DNA of 42,624 nucleotides from Candidatus Rokuibacteriota bacterium. GTDB lineage: Bacteria; Methylomirabilota; Methylomirabilia; Rokubacteriales; CSP1-6. The stretch spans positions 1 to 42,624 of the forward strand of contig JAUSJX010000045.1 in the NCBI GenBank assembly GCA_030647435.1, in the 5' to 3' direction. This document shows, piece by piece, positions 1 to 5,831 of the stretch. Each line of letters begins with the position of its first letter. Positions within the stretch are counted from its first letter, which is position 1. The notes below the pieces were generated by a model. That model was not told the origin of the DNA, searched no databases, and saw only the letters and a list, made by a program, of their open reading frames with translations. Both the position numbers and the translations under genes were made by a program.

Positions 1-170
1 TCATCCGCAAGCATCGGGTTGACGACGCGACGTTCAAGGCGCTCCGGACACGGCTCGGCGATGACGGACTCATCCAGCTCACGGGGGCGATCGGCTATTA
101 CAGCATGCTGTCGATGACGGTGAACGCCTGCGAGCTGGAAGTCGGCAAGGGCGCCGAGGTTCTGCAATGA
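1..170 (+). CDS. Carboxymuconolactone decarboxylase-like protein, C-terminal part
   Basis: The open frame enters from the left edge (codons from base 3) and stops with TGA at 168-170. The visible 55 residues end in LIQLTGAIGYYSMLSMTVN followed by ACELEVGKGAEVLQ, the usual C-terminal helix of carboxymuconolactone-decarboxylase/AhpD-like proteins in catabolic clusters. The CxxC active-site region expected upstream lies outside the window, so whether it is a decarboxylase or a peroxidase-type member cannot be told. Its TGA overlaps the ATG of the next, broken reading frame (ATGA). Confidence 0.7.
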   Translation, partial: IRKHRVDDATFKALRTRLGDDGLIQLTGAIGYYSMLSMTVNACELEVGKGAEVLQ

Positions 171-240
171 TCGTCGACGCGCAGGTCCACATCTGCCTGT
201 GCAAGGACGGCTGGAAGGCCGTGGCCTATCACCCGCCGGC
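167..240 (+). pseudogene. Start of an amidohydrolase gene, truncated
   Basis: The ATG at 167 overlaps the preceding stop (ATGA), as in a translationally coupled operon. The first residues, MIVDAQVHI, are the typical opening of TIM-barrel amidohydrolase (amidohydrolase 2 family) proteins, whose DxH supplies metal ligands. After about ten residues the similarity ends and the frame runs on antisense through sodC, so the rest of the gene is missing. I read this as the 5' stub left by a deletion or rearrangement. The evidence is short, so the family call is tentative. Confidence 0.4.
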
Positions 241-241
241 C

Positions 242-829
242 CTAGCCGCCGCGCTCGATGACCCCGCACGCGATGCGGCGGCCGCTGTTGCCGGCCGGAT
301 CGGTCCGCATGTCATCGGGGCCCTCATGCACGACAAGGGCGGTCCTCCCGCCATCGAGCAGCGACGCCGACCCGGGTTTGAGGGTCACGCGGGGATCGGT
401 GACCTCGAGGTGGCCATAGCCTGTGGCGTCCACGGTGATGTTGGGGAGATCGCCCGCGTGAGGCCCGCGCGGGTTCTCGGTGCCGTGCTCGGCCTTCTTC
501 GGGTTGAAGTGGGCGCCAGCGGAGTCGAAGTTCGGCGCATCACATCGTCCCACCTCGTGGATGTGGACGGCTTTGATGCCCGGCGTGACACCCTTGAGAT
601 CGAGCAGAATACGGACTCCGTCATCTCCCTGTAGAAGCACGGCGCTCCCCACCACGCGGCCGCTGGAATCCTTGAGCGTCACGCCGGCAACGGGAGGGCC
701 CGAGGTCACGCCCGGGATGTAGGGCATGCTGCACGCGCTCAGGGAGAGCGCCAGCGCGACGATCCAGGCCACGCTCCTCAAGGTGGTCACTGGTATCGGG
801 TATCGGGGTCGTGTCTTGTAATCACGCAT
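242..829 (-). CDS. sodC: Cu/Zn superoxide dismutase, lipoprotein
   Basis: It converts superoxide to oxygen and peroxide outside the cytoplasm. The 195-residue product starts at ATG 829; a longer frame upstream is antisense to its neighbour. The N-terminal hydrophobic stretch ends in a lipobox, LSLSAC, so it is probably a lipoprotein. The metal site is complete: HIHEVGRC gives two copper His and the first disulfide Cys, then GAHFNP, the HGTENPRGPHAGD zinc loop, a late LVVHEG copper His, and RRIACGV with the second disulfide Cys. It starts 14 bases after the stop of the TIGR04076-like gene and probably forms an operon with it and the C_GCAxxG gene, a redox-stress set. Confidence 0.93.
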   Translation of the reverse strand: MRDYKTRPRYPIPVTTLRSVAWIVALALSLSACSMPYIPGVTSGPPVAGVTLKDSSGRVVGSAVLLQGDDGVRILLDLKGVTPGIKAVHIHEVGRCDAPNFDSAGAHFNPKKAEHGTENPRGPHAGDLPNITVDATGYGHLEVTDPRVTLKPGSASLLDGGRTALVVHEGPDDMRTDPAGNSGRRIACGVIERGG

Positions 830-843
830 CGCCCTGGCGGATT

Positions 844-1266
844 CTACTTCACGCGCTCCACGGAGACCTTCATGAGGATCTTGCCCCACCCTCCCTTGTC
901 GAGCCCCACGTCCGAGCACTGCACCACCGCGGTCCGCTCGTTGTTCGGGTCCGAGTGGGCGATGAAGCGCTCGTAGATCTGGTTCACCGGGCTCTCGAGG
1001 GCGGCCAGGGCGAAGATGCACATCTTCTCCGGGCACTCCCGGGTGATCATCTGGCCATTGCCGTCCATGACGAACGTCTGCCCCACGGTGTGATGGGCGT
1101 GGCACCCGTGGGACTCGATCACCTCGGCGACGATGCGGGACGTCACGAACTCGGGGCTCTCGGTCACCATCTTCACCTTCAGCGGATCCGACCGGAAGAC
1201 GGCCATCTCCGCGTCCGTGTAGCCCATGTGCGTCTGGAACCGCTCCCAGAGATCTTCCTTGTCCAT
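844..1266 (-). CDS. TIGR04076-like Cys-containing small protein
   Basis: A 140-residue protein of unknown function. I chose ATG 1266 because AGGAGG lies five bases upstream; a GTG six bases earlier would overlap this site. The central part has a GCHAHHTVGQTF segment, then RECPEKMCIFALAAL, and a later VVQCSDVG. The pattern C..H.vGq.F, CP..., ..v.C.D resembles the small TIGR04076 family, which has conserved Cys residues and no established biochemical role. It lies between a C_GCAxxG redox protein and sodC on the same strand, which fits a redox or metal-related job by association only. The family assignment is from memory of the pattern and is moderate. Confidence 0.7.
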   Translation of the reverse strand: MDKEDLWERFQTHMGYTDAEMAVFRSDPLKVKMVTESPEFVTSRIVAEVIESHGCHAHHTVGQTFVMDGNGQMITRECPEKMCIFALAALESPVNQIYERFIAHSDPNNERTAVVQCSDVGLDKGGWGKILMKVSVERVK

Positions 1267-1338
1267 GGTCACCTCCTCAGTGGCCGTCCTTTCGCCGTCT
1301 TGCCCTCATCTGCGCCACGGCGGCTCTCATCGTTTGCC

Positions 1339-1782
1339 TCAGGGCGCTTGCAGCAGCTCCACCACGGTCTGGTAGGCGACGCCCACCGCGGGCATGCAGA
1401 CGGTCCGGGGCACGTCCGAGGCGTAGAATCGCTTGACGCCTTCCCGCGTGCCGAGGTCCATTCCCGTCAGGTCTCGGCAGTCCACGTGGCCCATGGCGGC
1501 CTCGAAGCGACGGCGCAGTTCCTGCGTCAAGGCATAGGCCTTGGCATCGCGCTCCGCCGGATCGCGCCGCCCGTGCCGCAGGCCGATGGCCATGACCGCC
1601 CCGGCCAGGGCTCCGCACACTGACCCGGTTCCACCGATGCCTCCGCCGAAGGCGGTGGCGATGCCGGGAACGACCTCCTACTCGATTCCCAGGTGCCGGC
1701 ACACGGCCAGCAGGACCGCCTCCGATCAGTAGTAGCCCTGCGCCATCAGCTGCTGCGCAGGATTGAGATCCGCCGTCGTCAT
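1339..1782 (-). pseudogene. C_GCAxxG_C_C family redox protein with in-frame TGA and TAG
   Basis: From ATG 1782, preceded by an AGGGGG ribosome-binding site, one frame reads MTTADLNPAQQLMAQGYY, then TGA (1726-1728), SEAVLLAVCRHLGIE, then TAG (1678-1680), then EVVPGIATAFGGGIGGTGS and VCGALAGAVMAIGL to the stop at 1339. This is the full ~147-codon C_GCAxxG_C_C family fold, and the other conserved cysteines are present (VCGAL, VDCRDL, RTVCMP). The TGA sits exactly where the family has its first conserved Cys (GYNCxxAV). That position plus a hairpin downstream suggests selenocysteine. The TAG has no such excuse and argues for decay. Both readings are open; see the finding. Confidence 0.75.
1692..1717 (-). 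promoter_or_regulatory. Candidate bacterial SECIS hairpin after the in-frame TGA
   Basis: Read on the minus strand the element folds as an outer GGU/ACC stem, a CCU bulge, an inner perfect six-pair stem GCUGGC/GCCGGC and a five-base loop CGUGU. The loop begins 21 bases after the UGA and has G at its second position. Known bacterial SECIS elements have a small apical loop with an early G some 16-37 bases after UGA, and E. coli fdhF has a similar outer GGU/ACC stem with a bulge. The hairpin is seen in the sequence; its function is inferred. Confidence 0.4.
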
Positions 1783-2155
1783 CGGCTTTCCCCCTCGGGA
1801 AATCTGGCGCGTAGTCAACATAAACGAACATGGGCCACTGGCCCACCCTGCCACATGAAAATCGGGTACTTACACGCCGATTTTCTGAGCAAAGCCCGTT
1901 CTCGGAGACGGCGGCTGTCACCGCGCAGACGAACCGTGGCCGGGAGCCAGCGGGGGCAGGCGGGCTTGCTCGACGTTGGAGAGAAGCCGGGTGTTCTCGG
2001 GCAGCTCGGCCTCGATCGTCGTCCGCCGTACGGGAGATGGACCTTCATGGAGGCCTCGCTTCCTTGACGGGTCACACGCTCATCGCTACAGTGCGGCCAT
2101 ACTAACCCTGCGGCTCCGGCGACGCGACGACCAATAATCTGACAGGAAGACGACG
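1783..2155. other. Intergenic stretch, no gene seen
   Basis: Divergent region between the C_GCAxxG gene (minus) and the plus-strand acyl-CoA dehydrogenase group. Short open frames exist on both strands but lack family resemblance and ribosome-binding sites. It presumably holds promoters for both sides; I could not fix -35/-10 boxes with confidence. Confidence 0.5.
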
Positions 2156-2293
2156 ATGAAGTTCAAACGACGATACGCAAGCCTCGGCCGCTACTCGAAC
2201 GGCCCCGCGGCGGTGGAGCTGGGGCGCGCGGCCGAGCTCGGCAGGACGTACTGGCTGGAGAAAGCGGAAGCGGAGATGAGGACGCGAGACTAG
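2156..2293 (+). CDS. Small ORF upstream of acyl-CoA dehydrogenase
   Basis: A 45-residue frame starting at ATG 2156, with AGGAAG seven bases upstream, and ending in TAG 20 bases before the acyl-CoA dehydrogenase start. The product is basic and helical (ELGRAAELGRTYWLEKAEAE). I do not recognise a family. The ribosome-binding site and close spacing suggest translation with the next gene, but it could equally be the tail of a lost larger gene. Confidence 0.35.
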   Translation: MKFKRRYASLGRYSNGPAAVELGRAAELGRTYWLEKAEAEMRTRD

Positions 2294-2312
2294 ACAGCCT
2301 CAAGGAGACGCC

Positions 2313-3503
2313 ATGGACTTCAAGCTGTCCCCCACGGAGGAGGCGTTCCGCGACGGGCTCAGGGCCTGGCTCGAGGCGCACTGCCCGCGGGACTGGGAAA
2401 AGACCCGGCAGGCTCTGGGCAGCCCCGAGGCGCGTGCGGAATTCCTCATCGACTGGCAGCGACGGTTGCACGCGGCCGGATACGTGGGACTGCACTGGCC
2501 AATCGCCTACGGCGGCCGCGGCGCCACCGTCATGGAGCAGGCGATCTTCTACGAGGAGCTGGCACGGGCGCGGGCGCCCGAGCTCGCGAACGCGATCGGC
2601 CTGGACATGGCCGGCCCCGCCATCATGGTCCACGGCACGGAGGCGCAGAAGCGCTTCCACCTGCCCCGCATCCTGGCCGCCGAGCACGTCTTCTGCCAGG
2701 GCTTCTCCGAGCCGGGCGCGGGCAGCGACCTGGCCTCGCTCCAGACCCGGGCCGAGCGCAGGGAGGGGGCCTACCGCATCACCGGGCAGAAGGTCTGGAC
2801 GTCCTTCGCGCACTACGCCAACTGGTGCACGATCCTGGCGCGCACGGACCCCAGCGCGGCCCGCCACCGAGGGCTGACCTACTTCCTGGTGGACATGAAG
2901 AGCCCCGGCTTCACGGTGCGGCCGCTGCGCCAGATGAGCGGCGACGCCGAGTTCAGCGAGGTGTTTCTGGACGGCGTGGAGGTGCCGGCGGACGGCGTGC
3001 TGGGGCAGGAGCACGACGGGTGGAAGGTGGCCATCACAACGCTCATGTTCGAGCGCGGACCCCGGACCCTCACGCGCCAACTCATCCTGCGCCAGGGCCT
3101 CGCCGAGCTGCTCGCGCAGGCGCGCACGCCTACCCGCGCCGGGCGGTCCGCTGCCGGTGACCCCCTCATCCGCCAGCGCCTGGCCCAGCTGTACATCGAC
3201 ACGGAGACCCTGCGATACGCGAACCTGCGCATCCTCACCCGGCTGCTGAGGGGCGAGCCGGCGGGACCGGAGGGCTCGGCCTCCAAGCTGTTCTTCAGCG
3301 AGACATGGCAGAAGGTAGCGGAGCTCGCACTGGAGATGCAGGGCGCCTACGCCACGCTCGGGGCGGGCAGCGAGTGGACGCCCGAGGACGGGCGGTGGCA
3401 GTACCGGGCCCTGCGCTCGCGCGGGAACACCATCCAGGGCGGCACCTCCGAGATCATGCGGAACATCCTCGCCGAGCGCGTGCTCGGGCTGCCGAAGGAC
3501 TGA
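2313..3503 (+). CDS. Acyl-CoA dehydrogenase
   Basis: A 396-residue FAD-dependent alpha,beta-dehydrogenase of acyl-CoA thioesters, passing electrons to ETF; full length for the family. The start ATG has AAGGAG six bases upstream. Visible blocks are the N-terminal helical domain, the flavin-binding signature GFSEPGAGSDLASLQT, the beta-domain ITGQKVWTSFAHYANWC, and the C-terminal GNTIQGGTSEIMRNILAERV that binds FAD across the dimer. It belongs to the long-insert FadE-like acyl-CoA dehydrogenases often seen in steroid and branched-acid degradation; the substrate cannot be read. The catalytic Glu was not assigned. Confidence 0.95.
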   Translation: MDFKLSPTEEAFRDGLRAWLEAHCPRDWEKTRQALGSPEARAEFLIDWQRRLHAAGYVGLHWPIAYGGRGATVMEQAIFYEELARARAPELANAIGLDMAGPAIMVHGTEAQKRFHLPRILAAEHVFCQGFSEPGAGSDLASLQTRAERREGAYRITGQKVWTSFAHYANWCTILARTDPSAARHRGLTYFLVDMKSPGFTVRPLRQMSGDAEFSEVFLDGVEVPADGVLGQEHDGWKVAITTLMFERGPRTLTRQLILRQGLAELLAQARTPTRAGRSAAGDPLIRQRLAQLYIDTETLRYANLRILTRLLRGEPAGPEGSASKLFFSETWQKVAELALEMQGAYATLGAGSEWTPEDGRWQYRALRSRGNTIQGGTSEIMRNILAERVLGLPKD

Positions 3504-3521
3504 CCCGGAAGGGGAGCCGCC

Positions 3522-3698
3522 ATGACCACGGTGAGGGTGGATCCTGTTGCGACGCTACGATTCTTTGATGAGTGCCCTGCTCGCAGCATCGGGCATGCTG
3601 CGGCTCTAGTGGCGATGGTGGGTGAGGATCTGGCTGTGGGAGCACTGAAGCGGTATTTGGAGTCAGCTTGGATGGTGATCCAGATCGCTGATCTGTAG
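3522..3698 (+). CDS. Small ORF of unknown function after acyl-CoA dehydrogenase
   Basis: Frame of 58 codons from ATG 3522, preceded by GGAAGGGGAGCC, to TAG at 3698. The opening (MTTVRVDP) looks like a normal gene start just 18 bases after the dehydrogenase stop. The remainder (IGHAAALVAMVGEDLAVGAL, then KRYLESAW) is lower in GC than its neighbours and unrelated to fatty-acid genes. It may be a chimera: an authentic start fused to foreign sequence at a rearrangement junction. No family recognised. Confidence 0.35.
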   Translation: MTTVRVDPVATLRFFDECPARSIGHAAALVAMVGEDLAVGALKRYLESAWMVIQIADL

Positions 3699-4098
3699 CA
3701 GGTCGAAATCATTCGCGAGAGTGCGTAGATAACATAACGCCTGTTCGCGGACGCGGCGGCCCCCAGGGCCGGCCCATCGGGCGTTGCCAGGCGCCGCCGC
3801 CGCTCGTAGCGCGATCGTCTCACGAGAATGCACCAATCGCACTATTGAGGGCCCACCATCTCGGCGCATAGTCTCCTCGTGCGGCCACGCGTCTGCCTGT
3901 CTCAGCCGCCGAGGAGGTGACCGCAACCACTGGCTTTTTCGGGACCGTGACGATCTCATCATGAATGGCGAATAGATGGCGATCGCTCATGCCGGTCTTC
4001 GAGGAGATTACCGCGAGATCGCGCCGCTGAAGCTCGTCGTGACGATCGGAAGGCCGGAACGGGAAATCTGGACTGAGCGCTAACCAAAAGGAGGGGCC
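3699..4098. other. Intergenic stretch, no gene seen
   Basis: About 400 bases without a convincing gene on either strand. GC content is uneven, and an AT-richer patch lies near 3700-3745. The last 15 bases contain AAAAGGAGGGG, the ribosome-binding site of the DUF362 gene. Nothing else could be supported. Confidence 0.5.
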
Positions 4099-5448
4099 AT
4101 GGCTTCCACTGTGTATTACATGAATGCCCGGAGCGCATCGCTCGAGACGGGCCTGGTGCCCAAGCTGCTGGCCGTGTTCGACGCGGCCGGTTTCGACAAG
4201 CTGATCAAGCCGAAGGACGTGGTGGCTATCAAGACCCACTGCGGAGAGTGGAACAACACCGGCTATCTGCGCCCCGTGTACGCTCGGGCCCTGGCGGACC
4301 GGGTCAAGAGCCTGGGCGGAAGACCCTTCGTGTGCGACACCACGACGCTGCCGTACAGCCCCTACGCCAGCCGCGTCACCGAACTGGACTTCCTCACCAC
4401 GGCCGAGCGCAACGGATACAGTCCCGCCGTTCTGGGGTGCCCGTTCATCTGCGCCGATGGATTCATGGGGACCGACGATTACCGGGTCGACCTTCCGGAA
4501 GGGTACATCCTCAAGGAGGCTTTCATTGCCACTGCCATCGCCGCGGCCGACGTCCTCATCACGTTGACCCATTTCAAGGGCCACGCCATGGGCGTCATCG
4601 GAGGAGCCATCAAGAACCTCGGCATCGGCGCACAGTCCAAGCGAGGCAAATTCAACGTCCACATGGGTGGCCATCCACGTTATGGCTTCACCGGGGCGGC
4701 GACGCTTCACCCGGAGAAGCTCGCGGGCCTCAATGGCGGAAACGGCGGGAAATGGCTGGAAGACATCTGCCCTTACGGCCTCGTACACGTCAGGGACAAG
4801 TCCATCGAATGGGATCAGGAGAACTGCCCCACCTGCCGCGCCTGCATGGGTCCCATGACCAGTTGCGGTGTCCTGGAGGTGCACAACGCCAATCAGGAAG
4901 CAGCCAATGCTGCCATTGCCGATGCCTGCCTCGCGACCATCAAGGCCGTGGGCAAGGGGAAGGTCGCGTTCATCAACCTGGCTCTGGATCTCACGCCTGG
5001 ATGTGACTGTCAGGGTTTCAGCGACATGCCCATTGTCCCGAATCTGGGCGTCTTCGCCAGCTATGACCCGGTGGCGATTGACAAGGCATGCATCGACAAG
5101 GCGACCGGCGCCATCGGGATCTCCGGCTCCACGGCTGCCGAGAAGGGGGTGCTGGACGCGGGCGAGCGCAAGTTCGAGGCGTGCTCTTCCCGAGCACCAG
5201 GTGTCAGCGAAGAGATCCAGCTTGTCACCGGCGAGATCATCGGGCTGGGAAGCAGGCAGTACGACCTGGTAGAGGTCGTCCAGGGAAAGCCGGAGGACTT
5301 CGCATTTTCGCCTGATTCGCGCCCGGTCGGGTTGCGATTCCGCGACAAGTTCGCCAAGTTCTCGCCCTTCCCCTACGACCGTTACGACGGCAAGGGCTTT
5401 CTGCGAGAAGACGAAGTGGACCTGGGCCGGGTCAACCCCGGCCGGTGA
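4099..5448 (+). CDS. DUF362 domain protein (Fe-S cluster-binding type)
   Basis: A 449-residue cytoplasmic protein of the DUF362 family; start ATG with AAAGGAGGGG upstream. The N-terminal half has the DUF362 pattern DVVAIKTHCGEWNNTGYLRP, VCDTTTLPYSPY, ADVLITLTHFKGHAMGVIGG and AIKNLGIGAQSKRGK. A central cysteine group, ENCPTCRACMGPMTSCG, resembles part of a ferredoxin-like iron-sulfur site (here four Cys in a compact array), and a second pair occurs in GCDCQGFSD. Family members are suggested to be Fe-S binding or redox accessory proteins, with no defined reaction. No partner gene adjoins it. Confidence 0.9.
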   Translation: MASTVYYMNARSASLETGLVPKLLAVFDAAGFDKLIKPKDVVAIKTHCGEWNNTGYLRPVYARALADRVKSLGGRPFVCDTTTLPYSPYASRVTELDFLTTAERNGYSPAVLGCPFICADGFMGTDDYRVDLPEGYILKEAFIATAIAAADVLITLTHFKGHAMGVIGGAIKNLGIGAQSKRGKFNVHMGGHPRYGFTGAATLHPEKLAGLNGGNGGKWLEDICPYGLVHVRDKSIEWDQENCPTCRACMGPMTSCGVLEVHNANQEAANAAIADACLATIKAVGKGKVAFINLALDLTPGCDCQGFSDMPIVPNLGVFASYDPVAIDKACIDKATGAIGISGSTAAEKGVLDAGERKFEACSSRAPGVSEEIQLVTGEIIGLGSRQYDLVEVVQGKPEDFAFSPDSRPVGLRFRDKFAKFSPFPYDRYDGKGFLREDEVDLGRVNPGR

Positions 5449-5449
5449 T

Positions 5450-5831
5450 GCCGGACGAAGCACCACTTCCTCCAGCGCGGCGGCCGGACCGGTCGTCATC
5501 GGCGGCCTGCTGCGCCTCACGGGAGCCGCCTCGCAGTACTCCCTGTCCATGAACCGCGGCATCGAGATCGCGCTTGCGCAAGCCGATCATCTGTTCCAGT
5601 CCTTGCTCCACCGCGCATTCACGACCGGTCTATGTCTTCGATCGCTCGGCTCGACCCACCGCTCGTTCGCACGATCATTGATTGATTCCCGAAAACTCGA
5701 GAAGGCCGCGGCCCGGCCCACTCTCGCCCACCGCCTCGACTACTTCACACAGGCCCCACGTGAAGGGGCTCGTGCCCCACCACAACATCTTCAACTTCGG
5801 TCGGATGCAGGACGTGTGGGCCGACAGGTAG
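5450..5831 (+). pseudogene. Branched-chain-type ABC substrate-binding protein, middle deleted
   Basis: Two pieces of one gene type lie in order on the plus strand. At 5486-5600 a frame reads GPVVIGGLLRLTGAASQYSL then SMNRGIEIALAQ, the N-terminal beta strand and helix of Leu/Ile/Val-type periplasmic binding proteins just after the signal peptide. At 5757-5831, in another frame, HVKGLVPHHNIFNFGRMQDV then WADR and TAG match the C-terminal end of the same class. Roughly 300 residues between them are missing. I infer internal deletion of a liv-type binding protein; the short length of both pieces limits certainty. Confidence 0.6.

Follow-up and report, generated by a model that had tools for sequence, protein, structure and literature searches.

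An in-frame UGA, probably read as selenocysteine, and a private UAG in a C_GCAxxG_C_C family gene of a Rokubacteria genome

The minus strand of the window (that is, the whole stretch of 42,624 nucleotides analyzed here, from an uncultured member of the Rokubacteria) carries a gene which very probably belongs to a selenocysteine-containing clade of the C_GCAxxG_C_C putative redox proteins, its internal UGA being read as selenocysteine with the help of a hairpin and its internal UAG being a stop, whether by mutation or by error (Table 1). The selenocysteine reading of the UGA, proposed in an earlier note on this DNA, is well supported by the presence of UGA in the orthologues, by a conserved hairpin and by the set of sel genes in the same genome. 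We propose that UGA codon 19 would be decoded by SelB together with tRNA-Sec(UCA), directed by a short hairpin with its loop 20 nt downstream of the UGA, and that selenium would thereby be placed where Cys-containing homologues carry their first conserved cysteine. In the present genome such decoding would be followed, 16 codons beyond the UGA and at a non-conserved site, by a UAG. Since UAG is presumably a normal stop here, this allele would yield only a 34-residue fragment.

Table 1. Positions of the gene, its two internal stop codons, the hairpin and the adjoining gene within the window
Feature	Position	Strand	Description	Basis
C_GCAxxG_C_C family gene	1339..1782	-	147 codons, UGA and UAG inside	Translation; PF09719 and TIGR01909 above cut-off
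TGA, codon 19	1726..1728	-	Putative selenocysteine codon where the family has its first Cys	UGA in 18/18 orthologues, Cys in most outgroups
SECIS-like stem-loop	1694..1712	-	7-bp stem, 1706-1712 with 1694-1700; loop CGUGU, 1701-1705	Conserved, compensatory change
TAG, codon 35	1678..1680	-	Private premature stop	Sense codon in 18/18 orthologues
Neighbouring gene, weakly TIGR04076-like	844..1266	-	Intact	28.6 bits, below the 33-bit cut-off

Translation of the gene gives MTTADLNPAQQLMAQGYY*SEAVLLAVCRHLGIE*EVVPGIATAFGGGIGGTGSVCGALAGAVMAIG..., in which the first asterisk represents TGA and the second TAG; the frame closes with a terminal TGA at 1339–1341. With residues substituted for both internal stops, profile searches matched the product to PF09719 (100.7 bits against a cut-off of 27, E 7e-29) and to TIGR01909 (87.5 bits against 47.4). 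The C...GCAxxG...C...C pattern is present, with UGA at its first site and the remaining sites retained in VCGALAG, DCRDLTG and TVCMP. Translation and family profiles thus confirm that an in-frame TGA stands at the first Cys of the family, as the earlier note had claimed. An intact selenoprotein gene should contain no other in-frame stop, and in this respect the gene is deficient because of the TAG at codon 35. An Rfam scan of positions 1–4000 of the window returned no credible match.

Orthologues were sought in 148 genomes, mostly relatives. Nine, at 72–90% identity, came from the same bacterial family but from genera other than that of the window, and each has a single internal stop, which is TGA. 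In the scan of genome contigs several of these genomes bore the name Candidatus Rokubacteria, the closest (G013) being GWA2_70_23. Nine further orthologues at 54–59% identity come from Chloroflexota, Nitrospirota, Myxococcota, Pseudomonadota and others, and all have UGA at the same codon. Scattered stops and frameshifts among the homologues, which had been named beforehand as grounds against selenocysteine, did not appear: all 18 orthologues have UGA at the codon-19 site and a frame otherwise devoid of stops. In the tree they form one clade with the window copy (support 100/99); at the UGA site the majority of outgroups have Cys. The UGA is therefore both aligned with the Cys of homologues and conserved across genomes.

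UGA likewise occupies the first Cys site in four distant members of the family that lie beyond the main clade (L032, L038, L039 and L061). Either selenocysteine and cysteine have been exchanged more than once, or selenocysteine is older than the clade.

The hairpin proposed in the earlier note survives in part. Its inner stem-loop exists and is conserved, the inner six pairs forming in 97% of cells across the orthologues and the distance from UGA to loop being exactly 20 nt in 19/19 sequences. The outer GGU/ACC stem, which pairs in only 59% of cells, is not conserved and was rejected; the conserved element downstream of the UGA is consequently the inner stem-loop only. An uninterrupted stem of 7 or 8 bp is present in 16/19 sequences, and at one pair five sequences show a compensatory exchange of G-C for C-G. 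The covariation score of the hairpin exceeded those of all 500 shuffles, in which sequence relatedness remains, and of all slid controls.

The bacterial SECIS rules (PMC13188914) ask for a loop of 3–9 nt, a stem of at least 4 bp, a G in the first two loop positions, a spacing of 16–37 nt and an energy of -7.5 kcal/mol or lower. The copy in the window satisfies all of these simple rules on loop, stem, G, spacing and energy. In departure from this consensus, the uninterrupted stem of three distant orthologues has just five pairs and, taken by itself, falls short of the energy limit. In this GC-rich window 9% of all TGA triplets precede a hairpin fitting the same simple rules, so that a lone hairpin is weak evidence; it is conservation in the relatives that raises the case above chance. 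Synonymous conservation across the hairpin codons 24–29 (0.85 versus 0.56, permutation p 0.014) is suggestive, though not strong, one other run of columns scoring higher.

The machinery for selenocysteine is present in the same genome. Contig C56 holds selA (583.7 bits), selB (380 bits) and tRNA-Sec (selC; 71.3 bits, anticodon UCA [tca]) together, while selD (343 bits) is located on contig C98 (L071, G000:C98:94090-95046). An absence of sel genes, which would have argued against selenocysteine, is thus not the case, selA, selB, selC and selD all having been found. A selA match above cut-off is widespread, occurring in 108/148 of the genomes searched.

The selD gene of this genome has an in-frame TGA of its own near the N-terminus, in the context TSYAACAG*ASKM. 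This site is presumably the active-site Cys/Sec position of SelD proteins.

The earlier note had warned that the TAG might reflect decay of the gene, a recent mutation or an error of sequencing, and this caution was right, as none of the 18 orthologues has it. The site is variable, all 18 having sense codons there, which in the nearest two are GAG and CAG. Downstream of the TAG the frame contains neither a frameshift nor a further lesion. With the rest of the frame undamaged, the TAG would be either a recent nonsense mutation or a sequencing or assembly error, and we consider these about equally likely. The dN/dS ratio to the nearest orthologue is approximately 0.25 for the whole gene and 0.22 for the part beyond the TAG. 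Changes belonging to the lineage of the window copy comprise, after the TAG, six synonymous and three nonsynonymous (binomial tail for 6/9, 0.01 to 0.04); for the whole gene the figure is 7/13 (binomial tail 0.02 to 0.10). These own-lineage changes are few, and hint weakly at purifying selection on the window copy itself.

The two-gene stretch 844–1786 shows 91–92% DNA identity to GWA2_70_23, a member of another genus, and within the orthologue flanks examined it is only there that the neighbouring gene adjoins the selenoprotein gene. The latter was not found in the four other genomes of the window's own genus. The simplest reading of this distribution is that 844–1786 may be a two-gene piece transferred between genera, or may have been lost from the other genomes of the genus. 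That the contig is a binning contaminant was considered and rejected: positions 4086–5466 are 94% identical to a genome of its own genus (G003), so that the contig fits the genome and only 844–1786 is closest to another genus.

Given a UGA read as selenocysteine, there is an even chance that the TAG genuinely exists as a nonsense mutation of recent origin, and that the gene, small and probably acquired by transfer, is on its way to being lost. The patchy presence of the gene, the affinity of 844–1786 to another genus and the own-lineage changes before the UGA (three nonsynonymous, none synonymous) are consistent with such loss, but the gene shows no further decay and the neighbouring gene is intact. 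Somewhat short of an even chance is the reading, likewise with UGA as selenocysteine, in which the organism lacks the TAG and the metagenome-assembled genome shows it through an error of base calling or assembly, or because a minority strain variant was captured; one change, private to this genome, separates the TAG from a Glu or Gln codon, and the frame is otherwise clean.

That this is an ordinary pseudogene, TGA and TAG both representing decay of a Cys-containing gene, is very improbable. That so small a gene has two in-frame stops, and that it is absent from the other genomes of the genus which were searched, would suit this explanation, but the TGA is common to 18 open-frame orthologues from several phyla, the hairpin is conserved, the genome has the full sel gene set and the gene has no frameshift or other lesion. 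As applied to the TGA, decay is already refuted by the conservation of that codon.

We give almost no credence to double recoding of the one gene, with UGA as selenocysteine and UAG codon 35 read through as another amino acid: the frame is indeed intact beyond the TAG, but no relative has TAG at that site, typing of all 45 tRNA matches in this genome, and of its tRNA-Sec, revealed no CUA anticodon, PylS matches in the genome are below cut-off only (the PylS model also matches nearly all control genomes weakly) and release factor 1 (RF1) is present, so that UAG should terminate and recoding via pyrrolysine or a suppressor tRNA was rejected.

The preferred reading, UGA as selenocysteine with UAG as a stop, places the gene in known company. 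NCBIfam names TIGR01909 the C-GCAxxG-C-C family (seleno)protein; C-GCAxxG-C-C has been tabulated as a prokaryotic selenoprotein family (PMC9312934), and its selenoproteins have been catalogued as "form 1" and "form 2" (PMC13188914). The latter work also describes one Methylomirabilota genome as especially rich in selenoproteins. The deep-Sep paper (PMC12013277) does not name the C_GCAxxG_C_C family. Like the selenoproteins of TIGR01909 and PF09719, the window copy scores well above the curated cut-offs and combines an in-frame UGA with a SECIS-like hairpin of the bacterial type; unlike the catalogued C-GCAxxG-C-C selenoproteins, it bears an extra, private UAG. Because selenocysteine-containing members have already been tabulated, and the NCBI name includes "(seleno)protein", the finding is correct but ordinary. 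It records the putative selenocysteine version of these putative redox proteins in Rokubacteria, and the 19 orthologues allow a SECIS reading through conservation and covariation. Automated annotation would miss the gene or call it truncated. The private TAG serves as a caution on draft genomes, or as an example of the loss of a selenoprotein gene, and in neither case is it new biology.

Elsewhere in the window, positions 1948–2236 are 80–87% identical to sites in two genomes of the same genus (G004 and G002) whose neighbourhoods otherwise differ from that of the window, and this segment is possibly a dispersed element.
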